The position numbers were made by a program, and so were the translations under genes. From the NCBI GenBank assembly GCA_000814665.1, contig JWIH01000016.1, forward strand, positions 297,409-361,408: a stretch of DNA of 64,000 nucleotides. Reading direction: 5' to 3'. Positions 25,068 to 49,849 of the stretch are shown one piece after another. This DNA comes from Pseudoalteromonas flavipulchra NCIMB 2033 = ATCC BAA-314 (GTDB taxonomy: Bacteria; Pseudomonadota; Gammaproteobacteria; Enterobacterales; Alteromonadaceae). The notes below the pieces were generated by a model. It was not told where the DNA came from, searched no databases, and saw nothing but the letters and a program-made list of their open reading frames with translations. Within the stretch, counting starts at the first letter, position 1, and each line of letters begins with the position of its first letter.

Positions 25068-25103
25068 TACCGTTTATATGATAACTTGCTAGCACAACGC
25101 TTT

Positions 25104-25125
25104 GGTTATGGTACGCTCCATAACC
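25104..25125. other. Inverted repeat upstream of the FAH gene
   Basis: Perfect 8-bp inverted repeat GGTTATGG-TACGCT-CCATAACC in the 87-bp gap after the permease gene. No T-tract follows, so an operator fits better than a terminator. Confidence 0.55.
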
Positions 25126-25154
25126 GAAGCTTATGGCAGTACAGAGAGGGTGAA

Positions 25155-25817
25155 ATGTATCAACATATTGATAATGAAAACAATAAAATAAGTCTACCAG
25201 CGGGAAAAATCGTTTGTGTTGGTAGAAACTACGTAGCGCATGCCAAAGAGCTAGATAATCCCATTCCAAGCAGTCCGTTGTTGTTTATCAAACCAGCAAC
25301 GAGCTTAGTACCATTTAATAATGAAATGATGTTGGACGCCGCACTTGGCGAACATCATTATGAGGCCGAGCTTGCACTATTAGTAGGCACCAAAATTGAT
25401 GCAAAAACCCCTGCGCCTCTCAAGCATATCGCTGGAATTGGGCTGGCACTCGATTTGACATTACGAGACTTGCAAAGTGAGCTAAAAGCACAAGGGCACC
25501 CATGGGAGCGGGCCAAGGCCTATGATAATAGTTGCCCAATGACGCCTTTTGTACCATGTGATGAAAACACCTTTGCTGAGTGTATTGAATATCGTTTTTG
25601 GCAAAATGGAGAGCTTAAACAGCATGGCGATTCTAGCTTAATGATTTTTCCAATCACTGAGTTGCTAAAGGACATTGCTCGCTACTTTACGCTTCAGCCA
25701 GGAGATATTGTCTTAACAGGAACACCAAAAGGGGTGGGGAGCCTAGCGCATGGCGATGAACTTACACTACAGCTGAAAAGCCATACTCCTTGGCATGGCA
25801 AACTTGCGATAGATTAG
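25155..25817 (+). CDS. Fumarylacetoacetate hydrolase family protein
   Basis: A 220-residue FAH-fold enzyme, close in size and wording to E. coli YcgM. The words KIVCVGRNYVAHAKEL, LFIKPATSLV, HHYEAELALLVG (the E-x-E metal ligands), GIGLALDLTLRDLQ (Asp ligand), and PGDIVLTGTPKGVG appear in family order. Members act as acylpyruvases, oxaloacetate decarboxylases or tautomerases in central or aromatic metabolism. ATG 25155 follows GAGAGGGTG; an ATG 69 bp upstream has no ribosome site. Confidence 0.9.
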   Translation: MYQHIDNENNKISLPAGKIVCVGRNYVAHAKELDNPIPSSPLLFIKPATSLVPFNNEMMLDAALGEHHYEAELALLVGTKIDAKTPAPLKHIAGIGLALDLTLRDLQSELKAQGHPWERAKAYDNSCPMTPFVPCDENTFAECIEYRFWQNGELKQHGDSSLMIFPITELLKDIARYFTLQPGDIVLTGTPKGVGSLAHGDELTLQLKSHTPWHGKLAID

Positions 25818-25851: not shown

Positions 25852-27105
25852 TTACGACTGCGCAGCAACGAGCTCAGCTTCCGGTTGATTGATTGTGCTC
25901 GAGCAGCACAGCATGATAGCAACGAGTGAAATTGCGCCTAATATTATCCAGCTGATAGTCAGGCTGACGTAGCCCAACAGTAAAGCGGTTAACGCAGAGC
26001 CGAGCAAGCCACCAAAGCGAGTGGTCAGTGACATAATTGACTCCACACTGGCTCGCACGTTATCGCTACTCAGTTGATGTTGTAGTTGCAGTTGTGCCGG
26101 TTGCGCTAGTCCCATACAAAGATAAAAGCACAGCAGGGCTACAATCAGTAATGGTAGTGACGTAACCCAAGCAAGTAACAGCACAAAGGCTAATTTGGCG
26201 AAATGAGCGAACGCCATGACATATCCTAAGCGTTGACCAAATAGAGAACAGATCGGAGCGCTGATCGCAGCAGCGACGCCATTTAATACAAATCCAGCTG
26301 CCATCATTGCTGGGAATATCCACGCAATAGAGTCAACTGGTGCACTACTATAGCGCTCTGCTAGAGCAGGCCAAAACTTCTCTATGCTACTGGCAACAGG
26401 AATTGCAAAAACAATCACCAACAGCAGCCTTTGCATACCACTTTGCTTACAAGTTGCCAGCATGGTCTTAGCTTGGCTAATCAGGCCTTTCTCAACCACC
26501 TCTTGCTGAGGTCTCGTTGACTCTTTCACCACGACAAAAGTACATGCAAATACCACACACAATACCACTATCGAAACCAAGATTAAGGCTTGATACAAGT
26601 GGTTGAGCTGTTGTGTTGGGCTAGTAGCAAACGCCAAAAAGAGAGCGGCAAATAAAGCGGCACTGGCGCCGATAAGATAGCCAATACCATACACTTTACC
26701 GAACCCTTTATTCAGTGGCTCATCTCCTTCAAGCTTTTGATAAGTTTCAACAAACCATGCGTTGAGCGTGCCAGTTAACGACGCCTGACTTAATCCCCAA
26801 CATGCCATGGCTAAGCAGACGTGCCAAAAGTCTTCACTCAACAATAAAAGTAAGTTGCATACAGCGGCAAATACCAAAGAAGCTAAAAATACTTTGCGGC
26901 GACCAATGGCATCTGCCGCAATACCGCTTGGTACTTCAAACACCACGATAGTGATAGCCATGACCACCATAGCCAAGGCCACATCTTGCAATGCTAGGCC
27001 TAAGTTCAGCATGTAGGGCGTAAAAATAGGGAGCACCAGCATACTGGCAAACATAGTTAATCCAAGGTGGATGCCGTATCGTGTAGCAAATTGTGAACGA
27101 GTCAT
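25852..27105 (-). CDS. MFS transporter, probable exporter of the NRPS product
   Basis: A 417-residue major facilitator protein with twelve hydrophobic segments. The loop 2-3 motif is VPSGIAADAIGRRKVF, followed by FAAVCNLLLLL, typical of drug/H+ antiporter-like members. Its ATG overlaps the TGA of the last NRPS gene by 4 bp on the same strand, so it is the final gene of the NRPS operon and the natural candidate for product export or self-protection. That role is inferred from position. Confidence 0.88.
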   Translation of the reverse strand: MTRSQFATRYGIHLGLTMFASMLVLPIFTPYMLNLGLALQDVALAMVVMAITIVVFEVPSGIAADAIGRRKVFLASLVFAAVCNLLLLLSEDFWHVCLAMACWGLSQASLTGTLNAWFVETYQKLEGDEPLNKGFGKVYGIGYLIGASAALFAALFLAFATSPTQQLNHLYQALILVSIVVLCVVFACTFVVVKESTRPQQEVVEKGLISQAKTMLATCKQSGMQRLLLVIVFAIPVASSIEKFWPALAERYSSAPVDSIAWIFPAMMAAGFVLNGVAAAISAPICSLFGQRLGYVMAFAHFAKLAFVLLLAWVTSLPLLIVALLCFYLCMGLAQPAQLQLQHQLSSDNVRASVESIMSLTTRFGGLLGSALTALLLGYVSLTISWIILGAISLVAIMLCCSSTINQPEAELVAAQS

Positions 27106-30100
27106 GCGCGTTGCTCCACAGTGGTTGCGGCGCTATTCGTTTGCTGCATTAACGCATTAATGTGTGACGCGATGATAGATAAGTCTTTCGCGTCGGTCAT
27201 GATTTCATCGTGTGCACTTTCAAGCGTAATATAGTCTGCATTGGCAAGTAAGTTTTCAAAACCATTTCTATCACTTGCAAACGTCCGCTTATACAGCGCA
27301 GGTATGTCTTCCACTTGATGGATCAACCTCAGTGCCGGAAGTGGAATGGCCTCATCACTGACATGATCGGCGATAAAGAAGCTCACAGGGAAGGTAAACG
27401 CCGTCGCGCTTTGAAAGTATTGAGTAAAGTCTAAAAATGCTCGGGCGATGGGTTTAGCGTCATCGTCTTGCGAGCGGATATACTCTTCTTCGGCGGCCTG
27501 ACGCGCTGCTGAAGTAAGTCTTGGTAAGACGGGGTCAATCAAAAAGCAGTGGACAATTTCTCTACCCATTTCGGCCAAGTAACGTGCCACTTCCAGTGAC
27601 AATGCCGCACCTTCACAAAAGCCACCCAAGTAAAGTGGGCCAGTTGGCGATACCTCTGTAATACGCTGAGCATAATAGCGCACCATAGTATGCAAGCTGA
27701 TGTGTTTGCCTGTGAACAGTTTGATATTTTCTAATGCGTGAATGCGCAGGTCGGGCGCGAGTTTTTCACACAGAGGTGCAAAGCTATCAGCGGTTGCTGC
27801 TGCTGGCATAAGGTGAAGCAGAAACTCACTCTGTGGTGCATTGAAAAAACGTGAAGGAGCGAAATGCTCATGGGCAAGCGCAGCGTCAATTGCTTGAGTT
27901 TCACTCATGGTGGCAAAATCAAGTCGGGTCTGATTATCAATAAATCTTGCCAGTTGCTGCACTGATAGGTGTTCTAGGATAAGTTGTGGAGTTAGCTGCC
28001 AATTACGCTTGCTTGCGGCACCACAAAAGCTTAATAAACTAATGGAGTCGGCACCTTGCTCAGTCACTGCCGTCGCACAACAAAGTGGACTCTGGCCTAA
28101 AACATCCTGCCAAATGGCCTGCACTTCCTTCTCTGTGTTGGTTTGTGGCACAACGAGTTGGTGCTGCTTTAGCTCAGGTTCTGGCAACTTAGTTTTGTCG
28201 AGTTTGCCGTTGAGCGTTAACGGTAACGCCGAAAGGACAGTGAAGCTATGTGGCATCATATAACTGGGAAGTAACTTGGTAAGCTGAGTTTTACAGTGGC
28301 TGAGTGCCGCAGCTTGATCGGCTGCGGGTTTGATGACCAAATAAGCATGCAGCAAGGTCTGAGCCTGCTGCTTTTTAGCAATAACCGCACAACTATCTAT
28401 ATCCGCCAGCTGATTAAGATGATGCTCAATCTCTGCCAATTCAATTCTAAAGCCTCGCACTTTGACTTGTTGATCGCCACGGTTGATATAACACAGTTGC
28501 TGTTGTGCATTCCAATACACTAAGTCGCCCGTGCGATAGTACTTTTGCATTGAGCCAAACAGATTTAGGGATACAAACTTTTCGCTGTTGAGTGTTGGGT
28601 TATTGAGGTAACGTGCAGCCACGCCATGTCCACAGACCACTAACTCGCCAGGGCAACCAAGTGGCAGTAATTCGTTATTGCGACCGACTACAGCCACTGC
28701 TCGCCCTGGGATTGGCTTGCCGATTGCTATCTCAGACTGCTGTTTAGACATCGTTTGCACTGTGGTAAACGTGGTGCACTCAGTCGGACCATAACCATTG
28801 ATAAAGTGTTTTGGACAAGATGTGGACGCCAGCAATTTATTTACCATCGACTCTGTTAATGCTTCACCACCAACGAGTAAATGAGTCAGAGAAGCGAAAA
28901 TATGCTCGTCTTGCAGCAATAAAGTGTCGAACAGTGAACGGGTTAGAAACATCGAAGTGATATTCAGCGTCTGCAATGTTGCACTGAGCTGCGCTGCAGA
29001 ATTAAGGCTGTCCTGATAGCCTAAGTTCACCTCGGCACCGTTGAGTAATGCGCTCCATATCTCAAATAGAGTGGCATCAAAAGCTGGGTTTGCGAGTTGA
29101 ATAAAGCTATCTTGGGGCTGATGCTGGTAGCTATGATTATCGAGTGCCAAAGAGCTAATTGCGGCGTGAGAGAGCAATGTGCCTTTAGGGTTTCCTGTCG
29201 TACCTGAGGTATAAATAATCGTCGCGACTTCGCTAGGTGCGATGCACATAGGCTCAAAATCCACCGTGATATCAGTATCTGCCAGACTGGTATCACAGAA
29301 AACTTCAGCGATATTGTTGTGGTTGAGTGTTGCCAATGTTTGGCTATGTTCACGCAAGGTAACAATTACATCGGCATTACTATCACTCAGTTGATATTGA
29401 TGACGCGCCACTGGGTCTTTGAGCGATAGTGTTGTGTATGCCGCGCCGGTTTTTAGTACCGCCAACATGGCAATCACAAACTCAATGTCGTTTCGCATGT
29501 AGAGTGCGACGACTTTGGGTTCAGGGCAGACTGCCAAGATTGCATTGGCAAGTTGCTTGGCTTGGTTATCAAGCTCTTGGTAGCTCAAGGTTTTATGGCG
29601 ATTACTGATAGCGGCTTTATCTGGATAACGCGCTACTATTTCAGCAAACTGGTCGGTGATACTTGCCACGCTCGGATAGGCGTGTTGCATTCCACTTAAT
29701 TGATATTGTTTTTGCTGCGCCGTGTTACTCAATAAAGGTAGGCTATAGAGAGGCTGTTGGGCGTTTTCAGCTGTTAGATATGCCTGTAAAACCGTTTGAT
29801 ATAACTCGAGGATCTGCTGCGCGTATGAGCTGGAAAAAAGTGCCGAGGCATAAGTTAACCCTAACTCAGTGGTCTTCCCTGCACTCAAGTGTAATGTTAA
29901 ATCAAACTTCGCTTGGCACTGCTGGCTAAGATCAAGGTCAACGCTTTGCCATAAGGTATGATGTTGCTCAGGGGCAAATTGACTACTGCTAAACAACGTT
30001 TGAAATATCGGGTGCATGCTAGTGTCGAGCGGCACGTCTAAGCTATTCTTAATGGCCTCAAACGGTAAGGCCTGATGTTGCTTGGCTTGATTAACGACTT

Positions 30101-31214
30101 GATTAACTTGAGTGAACCAGCGCTCAAGTAACATCGTCATGTCGATATCCGCTTTAATCGGCAATGAGTTAACAAAATATCCAAGTATGTTTTGCTGCAG
30201 TGCTGTTGGACGGTTCTCGCTCGGAATACCAACAACAAATTGACGTTGATGACTGAGTAGCGCAAGGGTGTGATACCAAGCCGCAAGCCCAAGTGTATTA
30301 ATACTAATGCGGTGCGTTTTCGCTGTTTGTTGTAACTTTAGCGTCGTACTTTCATCTAGCACAATGCTCTGTATCGCGCCGCGATGATCAAAGGTGGCTG
30401 GGCGCGACTGAGTTTGCGCAAGTTTTAATGGTTCGTAATCAGCCAATTGAGTTTGCCAATAACGTTGACTTGTTGCTTGTCGTTCACGTTGGCCGGGTGT
30501 TGCCATGTAATAAGCATAATCACTAAATTGTAGACTCAGAGGTCGATTCTCTCCCTCATAGAGTGATGTCAATTCTTGTAAAAACAGTCCCAAAGACCAT
30601 CCGTCAAAGGCGATATGATGCCAGACAAAAAACACATGTTGCTGCTCCTTTGAGGTGATGACATAGGCACGAAATGGTCGAGAATGCTGTAAGCTAAACG
30701 GCTCGTTAAAGAAATGCTCGCACTGCTCATGCAAGTTTAGATTACCAAGCTCATGATGCGTCACGACAAACGCCTCATTGGCAGGCTGCTGTATCGTCTT
30801 TCCTTGGTGATCATAGGCCACAACCATATCTAGCGCACTGTGGCGGATCACCAGTTGTTCTATTGCTGCTGTGAGTTTTTCAATATCGCAGTGCTTGGCG
30901 ATTTTGAGTAGGCATGGAATATGATAAGTACTTGCCGCGTTACTCACTTCTTGCGTAAACAGTAGTTGTTGCTGCCCAAGCGTAAGCGGAGCGCATCGCG
31001 TTTCCAATGGCAAGATAGACAGTTCATCAAAACGAGCTTTGCTATCTATGCCTTGCCTTGTGAGGTAGCGTAACAACTGTGGCTTATTCTGTTTTAACTG
31101 CTCAACAATTGCTTGGCCTTGTAAATTCACGTTGCTAGCAATTTTTAATTTATCCTCTTGCTGCCAAACGCTTATCCCACTTTGTTTTAGTTCATAAATA
31201 AATGATTCGATCAT
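27102..31214 (-). CDS. NRPS, terminal module: docking-C-A-T-TE
   Basis: 1370 residues. In order: TubC-like N-terminal docking domain (about 1-55), condensation (about 70-500, active site HHIAFDG at 199-205), adenylation (about 510-1000, IIYTSGTTGNPKG, NGYGPTE, YRTGDLV, KVRGFRIELAEIE, GKLD), carrier (Ser1057 in the unusual QGADSIS instead of GGDS), thioesterase (about 1120-1360). The TE nucleophile position is Cys1200 in GGFCEGA where type I TEs have Ser; Asp1227 (FLIDP) and His1335 (SAHDE) complete the triad. I read the ten-residue specificity code as DAFFLGGTFK, close to Val/Ile codes. It is third in the operon and releases the peptide. No epimerisation or methylation domain is present. Confidence 0.93.
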   Translation of the reverse strand: MIESFIYELKQSGISVWQQEDKLKIASNVNLQGQAIVEQLKQNKPQLLRYLTRQGIDSKARFDELSILPLETRCAPLTLGQQQLLFTQEVSNAASTYHIPCLLKIAKHCDIEKLTAAIEQLVIRHSALDMVVAYDHQGKTIQQPANEAFVVTHHELGNLNLHEQCEHFFNEPFSLQHSRPFRAYVITSKEQQHVFFVWHHIAFDGWSLGLFLQELTSLYEGENRPLSLQFSDYAYYMATPGQRERQATSQRYWQTQLADYEPLKLAQTQSRPATFDHRGAIQSIVLDESTTLKLQQTAKTHRISINTLGLAAWYHTLALLSHQRQFVVGIPSENRPTALQQNILGYFVNSLPIKADIDMTMLLERWFTQVNQVVNQAKQHQALPFEAIKNSLDVPLDTSMHPIFQTLFSSSQFAPEQHHTLWQSVDLDLSQQCQAKFDLTLHLSAGKTTELGLTYASALFSSSYAQQILELYQTVLQAYLTAENAQQPLYSLPLLSNTAQQKQYQLSGMQHAYPSVASITDQFAEIVARYPDKAAISNRHKTLSYQELDNQAKQLANAILAVCPEPKVVALYMRNDIEFVIAMLAVLKTGAAYTTLSLKDPVARHQYQLSDSNADVIVTLREHSQTLATLNHNNIAEVFCDTSLADTDITVDFEPMCIAPSEVATIIYTSGTTGNPKGTLLSHAAISSLALDNHSYQHQPQDSFIQLANPAFDATLFEIWSALLNGAEVNLGYQDSLNSAAQLSATLQTLNITSMFLTRSLFDTLLLQDEHIFASLTHLLVGGEALTESMVNKLLASTSCPKHFINGYGPTECTTFTTVQTMSKQQSEIAIGKPIPGRAVAVVGRNNELLPLGCPGELVVCGHGVAARYLNNPTLNSEKFVSLNLFGSMQKYYRTGDLVYWNAQQQLCYINRGDQQVKVRGFRIELAEIEHHLNQLADIDSCAVIAKKQQAQTLLHAYLVIKPAADQAAALSHCKTQLTKLLPSYMMPHSFTVLSALPLTLNGKLDKTKLPEPELKQHQLVVPQTNTEKEVQAIWQDVLGQSPLCCATAVTEQGADSISLLSFCGAASKRNWQLTPQLILEHLSVQQLARFIDNQTRLDFATMSETQAIDAALAHEHFAPSRFFNAPQSEFLLHLMPAAATADSFAPLCEKLAPDLRIHALENIKLFTGKHISLHTMVRYYAQRITEVSPTGPLYLGGFCEGAALSLEVARYLAEMGREIVHCFLIDPVLPRLTSAARQAAEEEYIRSQDDDAKPIARAFLDFTQYFQSATAFTFPVSFFIADHVSDEAIPLPALRLIHQVEDIPALYKRTFASDRNGFENLLANADYITLESAHDEIMTDAKDLSIIASHINALMQQTNSAATTVEQRA

Positions 31215-31217
31215 GCG

Positions 31218-34200
31218 TTATAACTCCATTTCAAATTCGCAGTCTTCGCTACTGGCGAGCGCGTTTAGCTGTTGTTCTACTTGCGTGGCAAATGCGTCAA
31301 GTTGTGGGTAAGTCAGTAAGGTCGCAACGGCAATTTCGTTGCCGAGCGCTTGACTACACAGGGCGGTAACTTGTGCTGCCTGTATGGATGAGCCACCCAA
31401 AGCAAAAAAGTCGTGTTGTAGGCCAATCTCTGAGACTTTAAGTACTTGCTGCCAAGCATTGGCAAGTTGTTGTTGTAGTTCCGTCTCTGGCGCGATATAG
31501 GTAATACTATCTTGCAGCATTGGGATGATGAGCTGTGTGGTATCAAGTTTGCCATTTACTGTCATTGGAAGTGCGTCAATCTGTGATATCGCAGCAAGCT
31601 GCATATAGCCTGGGAGTTGTTGATTCAACCATTGGAGAAGGTCGTTTACATCACACTTAGTGTTGGCGTTAAGTACGACATAACCCAACAGCACTTTGCC
31701 TGTTTCATTTAAATGTAAGTGTGCAACGGCATGCTCAACATCTGGATGCGCTTTGAGTTTATACTCGATTTCGCCTGGCTCGACGCGGTGACCATGTAAA
31801 TCCCATTGTTTGTCAGCTCTGGCAACAAATTCGAATTCACCTTGCTGATTTTTACGCACTAAGTCTCCGCTGCGGTAGAGCTTTTCGTCAGAAAAGTGGT
31901 TGTTGTCACCGCGAAGGCGATAGTCAATATAGTGTTTTGCCGTTTGCTTTGGTGCCTGCCAATAGCCCAAACCGACGCAATCACCGGCGATGTATAGCTC
32001 ACCCAAAGCGCCGTCCGGTAAAATCCGCATAAAAGAGTCCAACACATAGCAGCGAGTGTTACGAATAGGCTTACCAATAGTGATAGGTGTATTGGGATAC
32101 ACTTCACTAAGTGTTGCGGTAACACTTGTTTCACTTAATCCATATTCATTGAAATGATGCTCTGCCAACTTGTGGCTGACTGGGTCTAAACGAGAACCAC
32201 CAGAATACAATACGGTTAAGTTAATATCCGCTATCCACTTTGGAAACTGATTGATAAATACCGTAGGAATAAACGCGACGTTGACCTGTTTAGCTTTGAG
32301 ATAGCGGCACAGCTGTTGTGGATCTTTGCGTATTGGCTCTGGAATGATTTCCAGTTTGGCGCCGGCTGCTAGGGCTGGGAATATCTCGCAAATACAGGCA
32401 TCAAAAACATATTCAGCATATTGACTAGTGACTACCTGCGTATTTCCCTCTAATTTATGGGTGTTGCGCTTCTCGCTGCAGAGGTTAGCAAGGCCTTGGT
32501 AAGACAGCATCGCCCCTTTTGGTTCTCCCGTCGTCCCCGAAGTAAAAATGAGGTAAGCCAGCTTGTCTGTTGCATGATTGTTGGCTGAGAATGGCCGTAG
32601 TTGAGTACTTTGCTGTAGTGTCTGTACATCAAAGGTCAGTGTTGGTAATGCATTCCAGCTGAGTGGTGTGCGGCTAAGGAGCAGTTTTGCCTGCGCTTTT
32701 GCCATAATTTCCTGGCGACGAGCAACGGGATGATTGGCTGAGAGTGAAACAAAGGGCATACCCGCTTTTAGCGCCGCTAGCATTGCAATGGGGGCTTCTA
32801 TACCTTTATCAAAATATAGTGCAACTGGTGAGCCTTCGTCATTGGATGCAATCAACTGTGCTGCTAAGTGATCAGAAAACAAGTCTAGCTCGCGGTAACT
32901 CACGGTTTGCTCGGCGAAGCTTAATGCTGTGCGTTCTGGATACGCTGCTACTGTCTTCGCAAATTGCACTAAAAAAGCGTCATTTGGTTGTGATAATCGA
33001 GTTTCTGAGATGACTTGCTGTAGATACTCAGTACTAACTAAAGGACATTGCAGTAAAGGCTTCTCGTTGTACTGACAGAGATTTTCAAGATAACGGCAGA
33101 AAAAATGCACAAATTGTTGGCAGCGGGAAGACTGATAACGACTGCGAGCAACAATAAGCTGACCAATCAGTTGGTCTGGCATATCTTTAATCACCAAATT
33201 CCAGTCAAACTTGGCCGGGTGATATTGGTTTTGCTGGGCGGTGTCGCTGGCGACTTCAAAATGTTGATATTGCGCTGTTGGTAGTGAGAACTGATCAAAG
33301 GTAAAAAACACTTGGAACAGTGGCGATACACCCACCCCTCGGATCAACCCAAGTTGCGCGGCAATTGACTCTAGTGGCAATTGTTGGTGAGACTTTGCCG
33401 CAAGTAACAGCGTTTGGCTTTGTCTTAGATAGTCAGAAAAACTCTTATTTAAGTCGACATGCAGCGGCATCGGTAAGGTATTAACAAAGTAACCTAGCGT
33501 ATCTTTAAATGCCGAATCGCGATTATCGGTGGGGGAGCCAACGACGATACTTTCACGACTATCCCATGCACACAATGCGAGCTGAAAAGCACACAGTAGT
33601 AAGTTGTACATAGATACCTGATGTGATTTTGCCAGCGCCCTTAACTCTGCTGTTAGTGTTGCTGAGAGGGTAAAGGGGAATGCTTCACCTTGATGATCAA
33701 ACAAAGCCTGTCTTGGCTCATCGGTTGGCCATGGGGTGACATCAATATCAATCAAGTGTTGCTGCCAAAATGCTGCGGCTTCGTCGTATTGTTGTGTTGA
33801 TTGCCAATATGCATAGTCGCGAAATTGCAGTGAGGTTGGGGCAAGTGAGTGTCCCGATAGCAGCGTGTTCAGCTCATCCAACAATACTTGTGTAGACCAG
33901 CCGTCGAAGGCTATGTGATGAAATACCAGTAACACCCCAAATTCATCATCTTGGTGATACAGTCCGAGCCGCAGCGGCGCATCATTTTCAAGGTCAAATG
34001 TCTGAGCGATAAATTCACTATGCGGCGTGTTTATTAGAGTTTCGCATGTTGGCATGCCTTGCTCATCTTTATATGCCCAGCGACCTTGTTGCTGTTGAGT
34101 ATAGCGGGTGCGCAAAATAGCATGACGCTCAACCAGCTGATAGATTGCGTGTTGTAACGCTTGCTGTTGTAGCCCATTTTGGCATTTTAGCTGTAGGGGG

Positions 34201-37200
34201 ATATGAAAAGCGCCAGATTGTGTAGCTAATTGCTCGCTGGTAAGCATCGCTTGCTGCTGCGCGGGCACGATGATTTCATCAAGTGATTGTGATGTTGATG
34301 CGACCGGTAAAGGCTCATTGGTGTTGCTAGCTTGTTGTGATACCAGTTGCGCTATCGTTTTGCTTTGCAAAAATTGACTCAAACTGATGTCAACGTTACA
34401 GCTAGAGTGCATTTTAGCCACCAATGTCATTGCACTTAAAGAGTGGCCGCCCAAGGCAAAAAAGTCATCATCAATGCCTACTAGCTCAACTTCAAGTTGC
34501 GTCTGCCATAGATCACAAAGCTGTTGCTCTAATGGCGTGCGTGGTGCTCGATATGGTGTCTGTGATACTAGTGCGACGCTTGGTAAGCTGCGGCTGTCCA
34601 CTTTACCAGAGGCGAGCACAGGCAGTTGTTCGAGCCAACACGTGGCACTTGGCAGCATATAATCTGGCAATTGTGGTTGTAGCCACTTCACAATCTCGGT
34701 GTGAGAGAGGGTTTGGTCGCCAGTAAAATAAGCAATGAGATGGTTGTTTTGCTGTACTTTGACGCAAGCTTGGTTGATTTGCGGGTGCAGGTTAAGTAAG
34801 TGTTCTATTTCTTGTAGCTCGATGCGATAGCCACGAATTTTTACCTGCTCATCGGCACGTCCTAAAAATTGGATCTCGCCGTTTGCCAGATACCGCGCCT
34901 GATCGCCCGTGCGATACATACGTGTTCCGTGCCAGTTAATAAAGCGCGACGCCGTCTGCTCTGCAAGGTTAACATAGCCTCGTGCGACACTTGTGCCACC
35001 AATCAGGATCTCTCCTTGACAAAAGGGTGGCAGCGCCTTGAGGTTGGCATCAACGATTTGAATATCAACATGAGCCAGCGGTGCGCCAATATTATTGAAA
35101 TAGCGTGAGTGTAGCGGCTGATGGTTTGCTGTTGCCGTTACTGTGGTTTCGGTTGGACCATATTCAATATGAAGAAGAGGCGTCCATGCCTCCATGAGAT
35201 TGCGGTCACAAGGCTCACCACCCGTGATAACACGACGTAGGGCATGGTGGTCGGGCGGCGTACCGATGGCACTTAAAAATGCCGGAACTGAGACTAAGTG
35301 ACTGATCTTTTGGCTAACGAGCGCGTCACGTATCACGGCTGGCGACTTTGCACTTGCCTCATTCATGATCACCCAGCAAGCACCATTGAGCAGTGTTAAA
35401 AAGAGTGGCTCTACGGACGCGTCGAAAAAGTACGGAGCCAGACTCAGTGTTTTTTCACTTGAGTTAAAATTGTAAGCCGCAGTTGCGCTTTGAACCAAAG
35501 CCTGAACTTGCCGCTGCTCTACCATAACGCCTTTTGGTTTGCCGGTACTTCCAGAAGTATAAATAATATATGCAAGTGATGAATGACACGGTGAGTGTGC
35601 TTGATCTGAATTGAAAACAGGAGCTGGTTGTTGTGCTAACTCGTCAATGTTTTGCACCTTTGTGATTGCGCTAAAACACATGGCCGTATTCAAGGTTGCT
35701 TGATGACAAAGTAGCAGGTTAGCACCACTGTCTTGCAACATAAACTCACTACGTGCTTGGCCTTGCTCTGGGTTGAGCGGTAGATATCCAGCACCCGCTC
35801 CAAGCGTTGCTAATATGGCGACTATCATCTCTGGACTGCGCTCAAACATCAGCGCGACAACAGGATTTTGCTCGTGGATCAACTGTGCTTGGAGTTGCAA
35901 AACCAGGTGCTGAACACGCGCAGCGAGTGTTTGGTAAGTAATGACCCCATCGTTGATTTGTAATGCTGGTGCATCTGGAGTTGCTGAGGCGCAGGCCAAA
36001 AATTGTTGATATAGTGATAGGGTTGAAGTTTGCTTAACGGTGGTCGCTGGTGGCTTTGTACTTGGGTGAGACGTTGATAATTGCTCAAGGGCGACGTCGC
36101 TGTGTTCTACCTGCTGTACCAATAATTGCTGATAGGTGTGGGCAAATTGCTGTGCAAACGCATCATCAAACTTATTGGGATCAAGACTTATCTGTCCTTG
36201 CAAATTTGTATTGCTATCATCAAATGCCAGACGGAAATCACATTTAATCGGGTTATATAAAGACTCGTTAGTAAAAGCATCAACCGCTGAAAATGGTAAC
36301 GCAAACTCGTCCATAAGCTCGCTGGCAAATCTCTGTACACTAAACATCAGGCTTGGCTGAGGTGAGTGTTTTCCCTCACTCAAACAGGCAACTTGTTGAT
36401 CATAAGGATAACTTTGGTATTGTTTTGCGGCGCGCACGGTCTCATGAACTTGCTGCACGAGGCTGGCAAAACTTTGGCGATAATCTAGCTTCACTCTAAG
36501 CACTAAGGTGTTGACAAAAAAGCCAATCATTTCTTGCGTTTGCGGGTGATCTCGATTATCCGATGGCGCACCAATCACGATGTCTGTTTCACCGCTATGA
36601 AGTGCCAAAATATAACAGTAATGGGCAAGCAACACGCTGTACACTGTGGTATTTAATGATTTTGCTAGGGCACGCAATGCCTGACTTTGCTGTGGTGAAA
36701 GCGCAAAATAGTGCGTGAGCGATTCGGTTTCGTGTGTTTGTGTAGCGAACAGTGGTGCAATTTGTGTGGCATGAGCGCCTGCAAGTTGCGTTTGCCAATA
36801 ACTGTGTGCAGCGCTTTGTTCTTGCCTTTGTTGCCACTTGGCAAAGTCAAAATAGCTTAATGGCTTAATGCTTTCTCCTCGTAGCAAGCTAACCAGATCG
36901 CGCAACATGACTCGCATTGACCAAGCATCAAAGACGATATGATGCCAAAGGAAAAGCATAAAACGCCTTTGCTCAAGCTCAATAATACAGACTCTAAAGG
37001 GAGCTTGGGTATGGAGATCAAACGGCGTGTGAATGTGCTCTCTTACCAGTGTTTGTACATGAGCCAAAGTGGTTGCTCGGTGAGACTCGACCGCAAGAGG
37101 TTGTAAGGTTGCTCGGCAGTTAAAATGCTCAGCATCGGTTTCAATCACACTCGTTAGGATAGGGTGATGGACAAGCAGCTGTGCTAGTGCCGAGATTATG

Positions 37201-37529
37201 TCTTGTTGCTGCGCTGGATCATTCAGCTCAACCAGCATTGGAATATGATAAGCACAGGACTTTGGTGCACGTTTGTCTACATACAGCAACCTTGCCTGGG
37301 CATTGGAAAGCGGCACTGGTTTTAATAATGGCCAACTTAAAAAGGCTGCTTCGGAGCAGATCTGGTGGGCGCTTAGTAGCGCCAATAGTTCAGCTTTATG
37401 CGCTTTGAGTGCCGTTAGCAAAGTTGGCGCTACGTTACCCTCATATCCCAGTGCCAAGGTATTTTGCTCAGACACCCACACGCGCAACTGCTGCGCGTGA
37501 AGGTCGTTCAGTAAAGATGTTAACTCCAT
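31218..37529 (-). CDS. NRPS, modules 3 and 4: docking-C-A-T-C-A-T
   Basis: 2103 residues. In order: TubC-like docking domain (about 1-55); C domain (about 70-500) with HHIVFDA at 196-202, where Ala replaces the usual Gly; A domain (about 510-1000; YIIYTSGSTGKPKG, EYGPTE); carrier GGHS; second C domain with HHIAFDG; second A domain (LIFTSGTTGEPKG, EYGLSE); carrier GGSS (Ser2048); C-terminal tail ending EFEMEL. My reading of the codes is DAEVIGEVTK for module 3 (acidic at 239 and 322, suggesting a basic residue) and DACAYGEVTK for module 4, which I cannot assign. The second A domain has a deviant A8 loop, KQWDLHGHRVEPGEIE instead of QVKIRGFRIELGEIE. It starts 2 bp after the upstream NRPS stop. 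Confidence 0.93.
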   Translation of the reverse strand: MELTSLLNDLHAQQLRVWVSEQNTLALGYEGNVAPTLLTALKAHKAELLALLSAHQICSEAAFLSWPLLKPVPLSNAQARLLYVDKRAPKSCAYHIPMLVELNDPAQQQDIISALAQLLVHHPILTSVIETDAEHFNCRATLQPLAVESHRATTLAHVQTLVREHIHTPFDLHTQAPFRVCIIELEQRRFMLFLWHHIVFDAWSMRVMLRDLVSLLRGESIKPLSYFDFAKWQQRQEQSAAHSYWQTQLAGAHATQIAPLFATQTHETESLTHYFALSPQQSQALRALAKSLNTTVYSVLLAHYCYILALHSGETDIVIGAPSDNRDHPQTQEMIGFFVNTLVLRVKLDYRQSFASLVQQVHETVRAAKQYQSYPYDQQVACLSEGKHSPQPSLMFSVQRFASELMDEFALPFSAVDAFTNESLYNPIKCDFRLAFDDSNTNLQGQISLDPNKFDDAFAQQFAHTYQQLLVQQVEHSDVALEQLSTSHPSTKPPATTVKQTSTLSLYQQFLACASATPDAPALQINDGVITYQTLAARVQHLVLQLQAQLIHEQNPVVALMFERSPEMIVAILATLGAGAGYLPLNPEQGQARSEFMLQDSGANLLLCHQATLNTAMCFSAITKVQNIDELAQQPAPVFNSDQAHSPCHSSLAYIIYTSGSTGKPKGVMVEQRQVQALVQSATAAYNFNSSEKTLSLAPYFFDASVEPLFLTLLNGACWVIMNEASAKSPAVIRDALVSQKISHLVSVPAFLSAIGTPPDHHALRRVITGGEPCDRNLMEAWTPLLHIEYGPTETTVTATANHQPLHSRYFNNIGAPLAHVDIQIVDANLKALPPFCQGEILIGGTSVARGYVNLAEQTASRFINWHGTRMYRTGDQARYLANGEIQFLGRADEQVKIRGYRIELQEIEHLLNLHPQINQACVKVQQNNHLIAYFTGDQTLSHTEIVKWLQPQLPDYMLPSATCWLEQLPVLASGKVDSRSLPSVALVSQTPYRAPRTPLEQQLCDLWQTQLEVELVGIDDDFFALGGHSLSAMTLVAKMHSSCNVDISLSQFLQSKTIAQLVSQQASNTNEPLPVASTSQSLDEIIVPAQQQAMLTSEQLATQSGAFHIPLQLKCQNGLQQQALQHAIYQLVERHAILRTRYTQQQQGRWAYKDEQGMPTCETLINTPHSEFIAQTFDLENDAPLRLGLYHQDDEFGVLLVFHHIAFDGWSTQVLLDELNTLLSGHSLAPTSLQFRDYAYWQSTQQYDEAAAFWQQHLIDIDVTPWPTDEPRQALFDHQGEAFPFTLSATLTAELRALAKSHQVSMYNLLLCAFQLALCAWDSRESIVVGSPTDNRDSAFKDTLGYFVNTLPMPLHVDLNKSFSDYLRQSQTLLLAAKSHQQLPLESIAAQLGLIRGVGVSPLFQVFFTFDQFSLPTAQYQHFEVASDTAQQNQYHPAKFDWNLVIKDMPDQLIGQLIVARSRYQSSRCQQFVHFFCRYLENLCQYNEKPLLQCPLVSTEYLQQVISETRLSQPNDAFLVQFAKTVAAYPERTALSFAEQTVSYRELDLFSDHLAAQLIASNDEGSPVALYFDKGIEAPIAMLAALKAGMPFVSLSANHPVARRQEIMAKAQAKLLLSRTPLSWNALPTLTFDVQTLQQSTQLRPFSANNHATDKLAYLIFTSGTTGEPKGAMLSYQGLANLCSEKRNTHKLEGNTQVVTSQYAEYVFDACICEIFPALAAGAKLEIIPEPIRKDPQQLCRYLKAKQVNVAFIPTVFINQFPKWIADINLTVLYSGGSRLDPVSHKLAEHHFNEYGLSETSVTATLSEVYPNTPITIGKPIRNTRCYVLDSFMRILPDGALGELYIAGDCVGLGYWQAPKQTAKHYIDYRLRGDNNHFSDEKLYRSGDLVRKNQQGEFEFVARADKQWDLHGHRVEPGEIEYKLKAHPDVEHAVAHLHLNETGKVLLGYVVLNANTKCDVNDLLQWLNQQLPGYMQLAAISQIDALPMTVNGKLDTTQLIIPMLQDSITYIAPETELQQQLANAWQQVLKVSEIGLQHDFFALGGSSIQAAQVTALCSQALGNEIAVATLLTYPQLDAFATQVEQQLNALASSEDCEFEMEL

Positions 37530-37531
37530 GA

Positions 37532-40500
37532 CTATAGCTCCATCACCTGCGAAGAGGTGGTGGCAGGTGCGTCTTGAGATTGGGTGATATCACCCAGCTC
37601 TATGGTGTCTAGGTATTGCGCCAGAGCCGCAACCGATGGGTTGGCAATGATCGCTGATAACGGGATCGCAATCTGGTGCCATTTATGGGCATTGCGCACG
37701 AGCTGCACTGCTAAGATGGAGTTACCACCTAGACGATAGAAATTATCATGGATACCGACTTGTTCCAGTTCTAATGTGGTTTGCCAAATTTGGCACAGCG
37801 TCTGTTCAAGCGCAGTGCGCGGCGCGGCGTATTGGTTTGATGATGACATTTGCGGTAGCGGTAGTGCTTTGCTATCTAGCTTTCCGTTTACGGTGAGTGG
37901 CATCGCCGTGAGTTGGGTGATGCTATCCGGTACCATATATGCTGGCAGCTGCGTTCGTAGATGGTTAAGTAACAGCTCGGCGTCAAAATAAGCATGGTTT
38001 TCCATCACAGCATAGCCACTTAGCGCCGTTTGATTTTGGCGTGTATAGGTGATCACTGCTGCTTCTTTAACACCGCTACAGCTGAGCAATTGGGATTCGA
38101 CTTCACCAAGCTCGATACGATGGCCCCTGATCTTCACTTGGTTATCCAAACGACCTAGGTATTCTAAATGACCGCTTGGTAATAATCTGGCGTTATCACC
38201 GGTTTTGTAAACGCGAGTGAGTTTGCCATTGAGCGTTAGCTCGAAAAAGCGAGTGGCGCTCAGCTCTGGTTGGTTCAAATACCCAATCGCCAAACCTGCA
38301 CCAGAGATAAACAGCTCTCCAGGACAACCCACAGGTACGGGACGTAACTGACTATCCAGCACCCAAGCCTGCATATCATTGAGCGGCACGCCAATGTCAG
38401 CAATCTGGGTATTCATGTTAGGGTGTAAAGGTTGATAGGTGACATGTACTGTGGTTTCAGTAATACCGTACATATTGACCAATTGAATACGCTGACCAAA
38501 GCGTTGCCACCAAGGACTCAGTTTATCGTAGTTGAGCTGCTCACCACCAAAGATCACAGTGCTAAGGCTATCGAGCGACGCCGCCGCAGAAATGGCAACA
38601 TCACTAAAATTATAGAATGCACTGGGAGTTTGGTTAAGCACGGTGACAGCAAATTGCTCACACTGCTTTACAAAACCAAAACTGTCTCTTGCTTCTTCGT
38701 AACTTGGAATAAACAACCGACCGCCATGACACAGTGCTCCCCATATTTCCCAAACACTAAAGTCAAAAATCGTATCGTGATAAAGCACCCAAGTATCTTC
38801 GCTATTAAAGTGGTAAAGCGGTTGACTGGCAGATAGCAAGCGCGCAACATTTTTATGGCTTTGAATAACGCCCTTAGGTTGGCCCGTCGTACCTGAGGTG
38901 TAAATTATGTAGGCTGCAGAATCAGGCGACGGTTGGCAAAGTGCAATATCGCAAGGCGCGAATGTATTATCCAAGTTTAACAATGGCCAATTTGATTGCT
39001 CATTTTCGCTCAAGCTTTGCTGACTTATGGTGTTAGTTAATACTAACTTGAGCTGAGCATCGTCAATAATAAAAGCATTGCGGGCAGCTGGCGCTCTTGG
39101 CGATAGCGGCACATAAGCGGCGCCAGCTTTCATGATGGCGAGCATTGCAACCACAGTGTCAATGCCGGGCTGCAGATATAGGCCGATATACTCAAGCGTG
39201 CCATACTGCTTAAGAATATGTGCAGCAAGGCTGTCTGACCGAGTACTTAACTCCTGATAGCTTAACTCCGTTTGACTGGTGATAAGTGCAGTTTGCTGGT
39301 TGCGAGACTGCGCGTGATGCGTAAATAGTGACAGCAAATCTTGGCTTTGGTGCTGCGCTATTTGAACATCGCGCTCAATATGGTTTTGTAAACTCAACTG
39401 CTCAAGTGGTAATTGCCCATCAACGCTGATAAGTTGCGCGAGAATATGACTAAAGTTGTCACTTAAGGCATCGATAAACCAAGGATCGTAGCGGTTTAAG
39501 TCAAACTCCCATAACATAGTGACCGAATCATCCTGATCTTGCCCCATACGGGTAAGCACCACGATATTTATCTCAAACTTAGCCGCTTGACTGCTGATCG
39601 CCTCGAAATACTCAATATCATCTAATCCCGGAAGCGTGAGCTCTGGGAGTGGTGAATCATGGAAGCTAAAACAGATCTGGAATAACGGATTGACGCCTTT
39701 GATGCGCTCAGGGTTTACGTCCGCGACGACTTCAGTAAATGGTAGGGTTTGATTGGCCAGCATATCGTTACTGACTTCAAAACAATGCTGTACCAGTTGT
39801 TCAACAGACATTTCTGGTGTTTGCTGTACTCGCGCCACTACGGTGCTGACGAGCATACCAATGGTATCATCCACATTGGTGTAGCCTCGGTTTGCAACGC
39901 CAGAACCAATACAAATATCCTGATCGCCACTAAAGCGCGAAAGGACAATATTTAATGCCGCAAGGGCAACGGCGAATGGCGTGATCTGATGCGCTTGGCT
40001 GTAGGCTTTTAAATTGTTCCATAGCGAACGAGGCAGTTTAACTCGGTGTGCGCGACCACGTTCGGTTGCGGTTTCGCCGAGACGAGAAACAGGTAAGTTA
40101 ATACGGCTCGGTGCGTCTTGAAGTTGTGCCTTCCAAAATTGACGTTGCAACTCGGCTTGCTCTGTTCCCAACCATTGATGCTGATAGGCTGCGTAATCGG
40201 CGTATTGTGTGATCTCAGGCAAAGTACCTTGGCTTGCGCCATTCAAGCGCTGTTTATAACAACTAAATAGGTGATCAAGGAAGATGTTAGAAGACCAACC
40301 ATCATGTACTAAGTGGTGTTCAATATGAATAAGTACATGTTTAGATTCGCTAATTTTTACAATTGCCCAGCGTGCCAGCGGTAATTGGTCAATCGCAAAA
40401 ATATCATTCATATGACCATTAACGAGTTTATCGACCTCAGCTAATGCTTGTGCTTCTTGATACTCACTAAAGTCAAAGTAAGGCACGTCTTGCTGGTAGT

Positions 40501-42514
40501 GCTTTGCAATATACTGCAGCGGCTCATGTAAGTCGTAGCTAGTACGGAAAATCGCATGGTTATCAACGATATCTTGTAATGCACCTTGTAGTGCAGGTAC
40601 ATTTAAATCGCCACTGAATGTGATCGTACACTTTGCATGATAGGCTTTATCGCTTGGATCGGCTTTGGCTAAAAACCAAATCGCGCGTTGTTGCAGTGAT
40701 AGCGGGGCGACTTCCTCAAAATCAGCACCGCGCTTTGGAATCGCAATGGTTTCAAAGTGTTGAGTTTGCATTGCTTGCCATACTTGTCCAGCACTACGAT
40801 AGCGATAGATTAGATGTGTTGGCACGCTTAAGCCGAGCTGCTGAAATAACTGGTTGCTAAGGTTGATTGCGGAGATGGAGTCTCCACCTTGTTGGAAAAA
40901 ATCTTGTTGCCAGCCAAGACCTGGCAAACAGAAACCTTGAAACTGCGCTAAAAAAGCTTGTTGTTCTTGGCTAAGTTGATCTTGCGGTTGGTCTTGTTGG
41001 CTACTTAATTCGTAATTAGCGAGTGCGCGGCTATCTACCTTCCCGTTTTCGGTCATGGGTAATGCGTCTAAACATTGATAGTGATCAGGCAGCATATAGT
41101 CTGGCAGTAGCTTTTCTGCTAACTGGCTGATGTGTTGTCCAAGGTCTGCTGTAGGTTCACTATGAGGAACGATAAATGCTACCAAGAACTTAGCATTACC
41201 TCGTTGTACTACTTGGCAGCTTGCAAGTTTTACTGCCTCATGTTGGGCAACAACTTTTTCTATTTCACCTAACTCAATACGAAATCCGCGTAGCTTAATT
41301 TGGTTGTCATTACGACCAACAAAATGATAATTATCACCGTCAAAACTTACTAAGTCGCCAGTTTTATAAAGTCTAGCGAAGTGCACAGGGTCGACTTCTG
41401 CTTGATAATAGGGGTTGGCGATAAATCGAGATTTTGTGAGTTCAGGACGGTTCAAGTATCCTTTAGCCAAACCTGCACCACTAATATAGAGCTCGCCGAT
41501 AGCGCCATTGGCTACTTGTTGCAATTGCTCATCTAGCACATAAAGTCTGGTATTCACAAAAGGTTGACCAATATTAAATTCGGAGTCGGCATTGGTATAT
41601 TCATTGGCGCAGGTGCACACGGTATATTCGGTAGGACCATAACCGTTAAACACTCGCGTGACTTCTGAAAGTCGAGAAAGCATTTCTAGATTTGGGGTTT
41701 CTCCAGCGACGATTAATTTGCGCATAGAGCGCAAATCTCGGGGGTCCATCAAAGCCAGCAATGCAGGAGGGATAGCGCCAAATTGAATCGCATTTTTTGA
41801 GATCAATTGGCTGAGCGCTTTGGCATCACGTCGCTCGGTTTCTGTCGTTACAAATACAGTTTGGCCCAACATGATATGCACGAGCAGCTCAAATACACTG
41901 GCATCGAAAATATAAGAGGCAAACATCATAACGCGGTCAAGTTGGTCTAGTTCAAAGCGGCCAATTTGTGACTCGGCTAAATAAAGTAAATTTTGGTAAG
42001 GTACTTCTACGCCTTTTGGCGTGCCAGTGGTGCCCGAGGTGTAGATCACATAGGCAATATCACTCATTTTATAATCAGGAGTAACAAAGGCTTGCGTTGC
42101 AGGAGATTCGATCAACACTTGAGGTGTGTGGCCAAATTGTGGCAGCGCTTGATAATGCCCATGGGTGACGATAAGCGCCGGTTGGCTATCTTCAAGAATA
42201 AACTCGCAGCGAGCTTTGGGTGCCTCAGTGGAAATAGGGATATAACCCAATCCTGATTTGATTGCCGCTAAGATCCCCACGACCATATCAATGCCGCGCT
42301 CGAGATATAGTGCCACATAAGGCGATTGAGATTGGCTCAGATTCGCTTGTTGCTGAATATTCGCGGCGACTCGTGTTACCTGCTCTTCAAGTGCTTTATA
42401 GGTGACTTGCGTACCGTTAAATACCAGTGCAACTTTATTGGCGTATTGGCTGAATGCCTGCGTTAATAAGATCTGCGGCTGAGTGCTGTAATCAATAGGA
42501 GACTGGGCGGTCAT
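37532..42514 (-). CDS. NRPS, initiation and second module: A-T-C-A-T
   Basis: 1660 residues. In order: A domain (about 20-500; YVIYTSGTTGTPKG, FDAS, NGYGPTE, IKLRGFRIELGEIE, GKVD), carrier (Ser546 in GGDS), C domain (about 600-1050; HHLVHDG at 733-739), second A domain (about 1060-1540; FDFS, NMYGITE), carrier (Ser1599 in GGNS), C-terminal tail ending SSQVMEL. Beginning with A rather than C marks it as the chain-starting enzyme, with a free amino end. The module 2 code reads DFWNIGMVHK, the standard Thr code. Module 1 reads DAFAIAGVCK, nearest to Phe/Tyr-type codes. It is first in the operon; AAAGGATT precedes the ATG. No MbtH-like gene accompanies it. Confidence 0.93.
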   Translation of the reverse strand: MTAQSPIDYSTQPQILLTQAFSQYANKVALVFNGTQVTYKALEEQVTRVAANIQQQANLSQSQSPYVALYLERGIDMVVGILAAIKSGLGYIPISTEAPKARCEFILEDSQPALIVTHGHYQALPQFGHTPQVLIESPATQAFVTPDYKMSDIAYVIYTSGTTGTPKGVEVPYQNLLYLAESQIGRFELDQLDRVMMFASYIFDASVFELLVHIMLGQTVFVTTETERRDAKALSQLISKNAIQFGAIPPALLALMDPRDLRSMRKLIVAGETPNLEMLSRLSEVTRVFNGYGPTEYTVCTCANEYTNADSEFNIGQPFVNTRLYVLDEQLQQVANGAIGELYISGAGLAKGYLNRPELTKSRFIANPYYQAEVDPVHFARLYKTGDLVSFDGDNYHFVGRNDNQIKLRGFRIELGEIEKVVAQHEAVKLASCQVVQRGNAKFLVAFIVPHSEPTADLGQHISQLAEKLLPDYMLPDHYQCLDALPMTENGKVDSRALANYELSSQQDQPQDQLSQEQQAFLAQFQGFCLPGLGWQQDFFQQGGDSISAINLSNQLFQQLGLSVPTHLIYRYRSAGQVWQAMQTQHFETIAIPKRGADFEEVAPLSLQQRAIWFLAKADPSDKAYHAKCTITFSGDLNVPALQGALQDIVDNHAIFRTSYDLHEPLQYIAKHYQQDVPYFDFSEYQEAQALAEVDKLVNGHMNDIFAIDQLPLARWAIVKISESKHVLIHIEHHLVHDGWSSNIFLDHLFSCYKQRLNGASQGTLPEITQYADYAAYQHQWLGTEQAELQRQFWKAQLQDAPSRINLPVSRLGETATERGRAHRVKLPRSLWNNLKAYSQAHQITPFAVALAALNIVLSRFSGDQDICIGSGVANRGYTNVDDTIGMLVSTVVARVQQTPEMSVEQLVQHCFEVSNDMLANQTLPFTEVVADVNPERIKGVNPLFQICFSFHDSPLPELTLPGLDDIEYFEAISSQAAKFEINIVVLTRMGQDQDDSVTMLWEFDLNRYDPWFIDALSDNFSHILAQLISVDGQLPLEQLSLQNHIERDVQIAQHQSQDLLSLFTHHAQSRNQQTALITSQTELSYQELSTRSDSLAAHILKQYGTLEYIGLYLQPGIDTVVAMLAIMKAGAAYVPLSPRAPAARNAFIIDDAQLKLVLTNTISQQSLSENEQSNWPLLNLDNTFAPCDIALCQPSPDSAAYIIYTSGTTGQPKGVIQSHKNVARLLSASQPLYHFNSEDTWVLYHDTIFDFSVWEIWGALCHGGRLFIPSYEEARDSFGFVKQCEQFAVTVLNQTPSAFYNFSDVAISAAASLDSLSTVIFGGEQLNYDKLSPWWQRFGQRIQLVNMYGITETTVHVTYQPLHPNMNTQIADIGVPLNDMQAWVLDSQLRPVPVGCPGELFISGAGLAIGYLNQPELSATRFFELTLNGKLTRVYKTGDNARLLPSGHLEYLGRLDNQVKIRGHRIELGEVESQLLSCSGVKEAAVITYTRQNQTALSGYAVMENHAYFDAELLLNHLRTQLPAYMVPDSITQLTAMPLTVNGKLDSKALPLPQMSSSNQYAAPRTALEQTLCQIWQTTLELEQVGIHDNFYRLGGNSILAVQLVRNAHKWHQIAIPLSAIIANPSVAALAQYLDTIELGDITQSQDAPATTSSQVMEL

Positions 42515-42676
42515 TGAAGTAATCCTTTAAATATAAAAATGCTCTTTGTGTACAATATGTAAAGAATGTGTTTGAAATGTGTATTTTGTGATTTTGAGTT
42601 GGATTGCCGTCTTCTCAGCTTTTGCATATGACAAAAAGTCGCTACCATGGGGCATCAAACCAACCAAGGAATCATC

Positions 42677-49384: not shown

Positions 49385-49849
49385 ATGAGTACACCTACTT
49401 TACTCGAATACACGGTGACGCCAAAAGCTGAGGGTAACTGGATATTTTCAAATGACGATAAACCAGTTGAACTTAAATTAGCTCAGGGTGAAAGCGCTGT
49501 TCTAACTTATAAGCTCGTTACTGATGAAGCTGGCTGGAGCTTTGCTGAAAACGGTACTTTTTTTACCGAAGCGCAAGACAATTTCAATTATAACCTTATA
49601 AGCACATTAAAAGATGAGTTTACGGTTGAGGTGAAGATTGAAGCATTGAATGTTGCGAATACGCTAAGTGAAGATGATATCAAAGCGCTTTCAGCTAATC
49701 CTGATGCGAGGGTTGTTACACTCGTAGAGAATAACAACTCGAATATTGAGTTCAGACTTGTTGCTCAATGCAATTCCGCAAATGGTGTCGTGCGTTATTT
49801 TTCTCAAGATCCAAGGGTGATAATTGACAACCCAGATGTTCCAGGTTAA
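49385..49849 (+). CDS. Small uncharacterised acidic protein
   Basis: A 154-residue acidic protein without signal peptide or membrane segment, beta-rich in appearance (LLEYTVTPKAEGNWIF, AVLTYKLVTDEAGWSF, IEFRLVAQC). It ends DPRVIIDNPDVPG. It may belong to the 'DP-EP' family annotated in Alteromonadales, a label I recall but cannot verify, and for which no function is known. The start follows GAAGGATAA. Its last 4 bp overlap the stop of the convergent kinase gene. Confidence 0.7.
   Translation: MSTPTLLEYTVTPKAEGNWIFSNDDKPVELKLAQGESAVLTYKLVTDEAGWSFAENGTFFTEAQDNFNYNLISTLKDEFTVEVKIEALNVANTLSEDDIKALSANPDARVVTLVENNNSNIEFRLVAQCNSANGVVRYFSQDPRVIIDNPDVPG

Follow-up and report, generated by a model that had tools for sequence, protein, structure and literature searches.

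A five-module nonribosomal peptide synthetase operon of unrecognised product between purT and a FAH-family gene in Pseudoalteromonas flavipulchra

Introduction

Flavipulchrin is made in Pseudoalteromonas flavipulchra DSM 14401 by a nonribosomal peptide synthetase (NRPS)-polyketide synthase (PKS) system, Pfl, which in the available text of its description has a lipid starter, a PKS module, seven residues and an epimerization (E) domain (PMC12819058). The operon analyzed here comes from the same genus and has none of these features. It lies in a 64,000-nucleotide stretch of P. flavipulchra NCIMB 2033 (contig JWIH01000016.1, positions 297,409 to 361,408), called the window below, where three NRPS genes and a major facilitator superfamily (MFS) gene form a tight operon of 16.7 kb on the minus strand (25852-42514).

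Single parts of the operon resemble other described systems. In NRPSs such as those for rhabdopeptides, subunits are joined by pairs of a short linear motif (SLiM) and a beta-hairpin docking domain, and in one solved pair only the last five residues of the tail contact the docking domain, as given in the available part of that study (PMC9113145). Among thioesterases (TEs), ObiF and SulM form rings, use a Cys nucleophile and have the catalytic Asp after strand 7, and an Asp at the earlier position I is reported for AB3403 and most TEs (PMC11298585, available text).

We consider it likely that the operon encodes a five-module line for an aromatic-Thr-basic-X-Val pentapeptide, predicted to be all L, released by a Cys-type TE and exported by the MFS carrier, and that the operon behaves as a cassette between purT and a FAH-family gene. 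The case is built on what can be read from sequence: architecture, docking domains, motifs, triad residues, distribution, operon-free sites and code conservation.

Results

Operon architecture

The three NRPS genes read A-T-C-A-T / C-A-T-C-A-T / C-A-T-TE, where A, T and C are adenylation, thiolation and condensation domains. Gene 1 (37532-42514, 1660 aa, A1-T1-C-A2-T2) and gene 2 (31218-37529, 2103 aa, TubC_N-C-A3-T-C-A4-T) are 2 bp apart, gene 2 and gene 3 (27102-31214, 1370 aa, TubC_N-C-A5-T-TE) are 3 bp apart, and gene 3 overlaps the MFS gene (25852-27105, 417 aa) by 4 bp (ATGA). Pfam detected two A, one C and two T domains in gene 1; TubC_N, two C, two A and two T domains in gene 2; TubC_N, C, A, T and Thioesterase (E 9.1e-11) in gene 3; and MFS_1 in gene 4. 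The open reading frames (ORFs) and Pfam therefore agree with the sequence-only reading made earlier of this DNA, which had described three NRPS genes and an MFS gene in this layout with gaps of 2-3 bp or an ATGA overlap. With A, T and C in module order and a terminal release domain, the system is a type I modular NRPS. As the loading module lacks a starter C domain, the N-terminus is expected to be free; the earlier proposal of five modules with a free N-terminus is supported.

The operon was found in 14 genomes (see below), and all four reading frames are open in each. The T-domain serines and the C motifs HHxxxDG, such as HHLVHDG in the C domain of module 2 (39389-40717; Pfam, motif alignment), are kept in 14/14 operons with the exception of the first C domain of gene 2. 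Here the motif is HHIxFDA, with A replacing the last G, in the 10 operons of clades I and II. The promoter would be expected in the 132-bp gap to purT (42515-42646). This gap contains no sigma-70-like match, and the promoter scan was uninformative (19 matches versus 24.7 expected).

Distribution and versions

Gene 2 had matches in 40 of 108 genomes of the same genus at E<=1e-150. Of these, 14 were full-length (46-100% identity) and the remaining ones were other NRPSs (29-37%). A TE profile recovered the same 14 genomes out of 108, and the four genes are in the same order in every one. Confirmed carriers are Pseudoalteromonas sp. S2755, P. rubra S2471 and Pseudoalteromonas sp. OOF1S-7, whose operons share gene order, docking domains, Thr code and Cys TE with the window's. 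Over genes 1-3, S2755 is 96-99% identical to the window, whereas P. rubra S2471 and OOF1S-7 are 47-52% identical; compared with the window's codes, the latter two differ at 2/8 positions in A1, 3/8 in A4 and one each in A3 and A5.

The operon exists as three main versions, 43-72% identical to one another. Clade I comprises six genomes including the window's (genes 1-3 96-99% identical to the window). Clade II comprises four, with 71-72% identity to the window in gene 1 and 46-49% in genes 2 and 3, and consists of two pairs (90-95% identical within each pair, 62-72% between them). The four genomes of clade III are 46-52% identical to the window and 43-51% to clade II. In 394 genomes of the order at E<=1e-15, the TE profile matched one partial sequence from beyond the genus (residues 21-135, E 5.2e-17) besides the own genome; in 369 genomes of the class at E<=1e-12 it matched the own genome alone. 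Among 295 genomes of the family, gene 3 identified the carriers G000, G267 and G243; other matches were 28-37% identical.

Specificity codes and predicted residues

Re-extraction gave DAFAIAGVCK for A1 (41000-42472), DFWNIGMVHK for A2 (37862-39325), DAEVIGEVTK for A3 (34560-36047), DACAYGEVTK for A4 (31500-33002) and DAFFLGGTFK for A5 (28161-29702; all domain limits approximate). All five codes had been read correctly before. Position 278 of A4 is A by ortholog alignment and F by a large alignment of A domains.

Codes from the same genome served as calibrators. Contig C10 carries an NRPS/PKS-like cluster at ~89-120 kb (L078, L079) with codes for Gly-Asp-Asn-Asn-Thr-Leu-Arg and an E-like domain ahead of the final module, and the published residue order of flavipulchrin, in the text available, fits this code order (PMC12819058). 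The cluster thus fits flavipulchrin, and its calibrator codes are DFWNIGMVHK for Thr and DVESTGAISK for Arg. The A2 code of the operon, DFWNIGMVH(K), is invariant in 14/14 operons and identical to this Thr code. The A5 code is DAF[FW]LG[GV]TF(K) in 13/14. In 7/14 it takes the form DAFWLGGTFK, one residue from DAFWLGATFK, the Val code of an alterochromide-like series in the same genome; the Val reading of that series follows the order Thr-Val-Asn-Asn, which we take to be that of alterochromide. Residues 2 and 5 are therefore supported as Thr and Val by their codes.

For positions 1 and 3, an aromatic and a basic residue are plausible. The A3 code is DAEV[IV]GEVT(K) in 14/14 operons. Its E239 also occurs in the Arg-type (DVESTGAISK) and Lys-type (DTEDIGTVVK) codes found in the same genome, which makes a basic residue the most plausible choice. 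This glutamate may also correspond to E204 in ApnA A1, an Arg/Tyr domain, a mapping made from spacing and from the available text (PMC7242659). The A1 code is DAFAIAGVCK, DAF[SC]VAGVGK or DAFSIAGVAK depending on the version. Among A domains of the own genome, its pocket is nearest to DASTVAAVCK (25/38 residues compared; next best 19), hence the aromatic-like reading. A4 (DACAYGEVTK, DACAFGEVCK or DAIAFGEVCK) is left as residue X. Of the aromatic-Thr-basic-X-Val/Ile order first predicted from the codes, Thr and Val thus stand, and the other two assignments keep the status of plausible guesses.

Conservation of the codes was assessed by comparing the window with G333, G315, G336 and G337, four of the other 13 carriers. 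Where the domains are 47-52% identical, A3 pairs keep 7-8 of 8 variable code positions and A5 pairs 7/8 (4/8 in G337), and A2 pairs keep 8/8 at 58-72%. As a control, other A-domain pairs of the own genome share a mean of 1.61/8 positions at 45-55% identity (n=140; 1.4% share at least 6) and 2.15/8 at 35-45% (n=305; 6.6% share at least 6). By this comparison, the predicted composition would be largely conserved among versions, the exceptions being positions 1 and 4, which drift. In G337 (L063), A5 reads DAIFLGLSCK, unlike the Val type of the other clade III genomes, although its genes 1-3 are 81-87% identical to those of G336. This is likely a recent substrate change.

Several results weigh against the proposed pentapeptide line. 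At 47-52% identity A4 pairs keep 5-6/8 positions, and A1 pairs keep 5-6/8 at 52-67%, with 5/8 between versions that are 67% identical. This drift and the A5 code of G337 indicate that the product is not identical in all carriers. The control pairs are paralogs, mostly of other specificity, so the comparison does not demonstrate more constraint than is general for orthologs. Among the A domains compared, none with a known substrate lies close to A3 or A4, and four of the code strings had no occurrence in the literature searched. Searches of A1, A3 and A4 against the PDB returned general A domains, with linear gramicidin synthase first each time, and gave no substrate call.

Subunit docking and stereochemistry

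Both acceptor subunits begin with a TubC_N domain, as in the SLiM-beta-hairpin system. The domain of gene 3 (31062-31211; E 2.3e-8) scores over the Pfam cut-off, and the predicted beta-hairpin domain of gene 2 (37371-37517; E 1.2e-4, 22.6 bits) is under the curated cut-off of 26 bits. The donor subunits end in short conserved tails that are candidate docking motifs. Gene 1 has QVMEL (37535-37549) in 14/14 operons, followed by four extra residues in G331, and gene 2 has FEMEL (31221-31235) or FEMEI in 13/14 and FKMEI in G298. From this combination, the subunits are probably joined by the TubC_N domains and the tails. The likeness to the rhabdopeptide pairs described in the available text of PMC9113145 consists of TubC_N presence on genes 2 and 3 and tail conservation on genes 1 and 2.

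Pfam found no epimerization or methyltransferase domain in the operon proteins. We also built a tree of the 56 distinct C-like domains of the own genome, labelled by a context rule, for example as DCL (following a D residue) or E. All four operon C domains lie outside the clade that contains 7 of the 9 DCL-labelled domains. Taken together, these two results lead us to expect an all-L backbone, and LCL type (following an L residue) is weakly supported for the four C domains. Speaking against this assignment, the LCL group with the operon C domains has a support of 0.293, and for the C domain of gene 1 the value is 0.063. Four labelled domains also fell in other parts of the tree: C8_79432 and C11_195135, which carry the DCL label, and C8_76613 and C11_217689, which carry the E label. 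The context rule probably mislabelled all four.

Thioesterase

The TE domain (27105-27932; Pfam, alignment, model) contains Cys1200 (codon 27617-27615) as nucleophile, Asp1227 and His1335, and all three residues align in 14/14 operons. Asp1227 stands in an LIDP motif at position I in every operon. In the structural model, Cys ends one strand and Asp ends the next; the mean pLDDT (predicted local distance difference test) of 66 is moderate and counts against relying on this placement. Alignment and model together make Asp1227, which lies one strand beyond that of the nucleophile, the most likely triad acid. At the later acid column, clades I and III have D and clade II has N or S, with a D one residue further. 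Since a second Asp is thus near the later position in all clades, there is still room for the ObiF/SulM arrangement.

A fold search with the model returned generic NRPS/PKS thioesterases, NocB first, with TM-scores up to about 0.5 among the 50 best rows. The best PDB sequence match was AB3403 of Acinetobacter baumannii (4zxh; E 4.1e-8), a C-A-T-TE protein whose product is uncharacterised. It has the same Cys nucleophile and an Asp after strand 6 (PMC11298585, available text). Identity in this match is low, only 131 of the 276 TE residues are covered, and the protein context is different. A literature search on Cys thioesterases gave no papers. The beta-lactone- and beta-lactam-forming TEs ObiF1 and SulM likewise share the Cys nucleophile, but their Asp is behind strand 7 in the same source, in contrast to the conserved earlier Asp1227.

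The purT-FAH site

In 13 of the 14 carriers the operon lies between purT and the FAH-family gene (PurT matched in 13/14, FAH identified from ORF ends); G298 has different flanks and no PurT match. We then surveyed 30 purT loci out of 47 matches in 107 genomes. Gene 1 adjoins purT in 11, and in 19/19 others the FAH-family gene adjoins purT without the operon, the two alignment ends being ~20-450 bp apart. No remnant of the operon was found between purT and FAH in these 19 loci, so it behaves like a cassette. G333 has a PurT 95% identical to the window's, yet its operon is of clade II (gene 1 72%, gene 2 49%), and G308, G356 and G326 have PurT proteins 96-97% identical to the window's and no operon. 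This pattern suggests that the operon is gained, lost and exchanged at a single site.

Exchange may also have affected parts of the operon. Compared in 100-residue steps, clades I and II are 54-89% identical in gene 1 and 71-72% over residues 1-100 of gene 2, which hold the docking domain and the start of C. In the remainder of genes 2 and 3 the range is 29-69%, and the MFS gene has 62-76%. In 20-residue steps, identity drops at about residue 100 of gene 2, where clade III dips as well. The pattern fits a clade I in which this stretch of genes 2-3 was replaced, with faster evolution of the stretch as the alternative. The FAH-family gene (window 25086-25817; L102, L103, L105) is 77-81% identical where PurT is 96-97% identical, and the exchange may therefore include it.

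The neighbouring genes were considered as tailoring genes and rejected, given that purT and FAH stand side by side without the operon in 19/19 loci. Nitroreductase and aldo-keto reductase genes are also present at many operon-free loci. This is consistent with the earlier remark that no tailoring gene lies nearby. Farther away, at 49846-52398, an ORF resembles, by eye, a Ser/Thr protein kinase whose C-terminal half is TPR-like.

Discussion

The genus makes peptides of the alterochromide, flavipulchrin, myxochelin/pseudochelin and siderophore families, and the same genome has A-domain series whose codes would fit flavipulchrin, alterochromide and myxochelin, so a product from one of these families had to be considered. 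We give this almost no credence. Those series are on other contigs (C10; C15, C7 and C21; C11), and the operon has different codes and neither a starter C nor an E domain. Alterochromide or flavipulchrin was rejected as its identity because lipid starter and residue order are not matched. A siderophore was rejected as well; no siderophore receptor was seen among the neighbouring ORFs, read by eye. Elsewhere in the genome, contigs C1 and C24 (L086-L089) carry big NRPS arrays with several identical codes and near-identical C domains, which suggests repeats split by the assembly. It is also very unlikely that the operon is decayed or silent. A missing product in the literature searched, an upstream gap without a promoter-like match and the altered C1 motif of gene 2 in clades I and II would fit such a state, but the frames are open in all 14 genomes, the catalytic motifs are retained, and the code is largely conserved over ~50% divergence. 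A third view is unlikely, though less so than these two. It sees an operon of exchangeable alleles, with three versions at one purT-FAH site and a more divergent clade I block that starts shortly behind the docking domain of gene 2 and takes in the rest of genes 2 and 3. Such an operon would hold Thr, module 3 and Val fixed and make a genus-restricted pentapeptide, which a Cys TE would release as a strained ring. The TE lineage on which this view draws is full-length only in Pseudoalteromonas among the genomes searched.

Two alternatives concern details of the pentapeptide and deserve more weight. Positions 1 and 3 might be neither aromatic nor basic, with substrates that are possibly non-proteinogenic. 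The drift of the A1 and A4 codes points this way, as does A3, whose E239 with V278 and E322 matches no calibrator code. The A1 pocket match and the glutamate shared with the Arg and Lys calibrators argue for the residues proposed, and we regard other substrates as the less probable choice by a clear measure. Closer to an even matter, though we lean slightly away from it, is whether the TE yields a cyclic product (a lactone on the Thr-2 hydroxyl or a head-to-tail cyclopentapeptide) rather than a linear acid. The invariant Thr code at position 2 and a conserved Cys nucleophile like that of the ring-forming TEs speak for a ring. The likely triad acid is at the position of AB3403 and most TEs instead of the later one of ObiF and SulM (PMC11298585, available text), and no sequence feature separates cyclisation from hydrolysis.

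In the pathway we favour, three NRPS proteins would be coupled through tail/beta-hairpin docking pairs. The loading module would take a free, presumably aromatic, amino acid, after which Thr, a basic (Arg/Lys-like) residue, X and Val would be added, all as L residues. The pentapeptide would pass to the Cys-type TE and be released by hydrolysis, head-to-tail cyclisation or Thr lactone formation, and the co-transcribed MFS carrier, judged by its place in the operon, would export it. The cassette between purT and FAH would be exchanged among some Pseudoalteromonas as divergent versions, with selection retaining much of the specificity code. Beyond the domains and residues themselves, we infer substrates 1 and 3, the all-L backbone, tail docking, export, release chemistry, exchange and selection.

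No description of the operon was found in the available text of the literature on Pseudoalteromonas NRPS peptides, genus-wide mining and P. rubra NRPSs. The claim of an unrecognised product stands for the literature searched, by text only. The operon may be one of the 18 orphan NRPS families that a 2026 pangenome study reports for the genus (PMC13385065, available text). A 2019 survey predicted 25 clusters with low similarity to known ones in P. rubra S4059 (PMC6581688, available text). We conclude that the operon is a real, intact orphan NRPS of ordinary type, orphan status being judged from literature text searches only. Added here to the sequence-only reading are the docking domains with the tails, the TE's Cys nucleophile, the relatives and the cassette. 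As a compact, complete and clean-edged orphan cluster with operon-free sites and divergent versions, it is a practical target for a new peptide. Its natural versions would also suit a study of how complete NRPS cassettes pass from species to species while their specificity stays largely the same.

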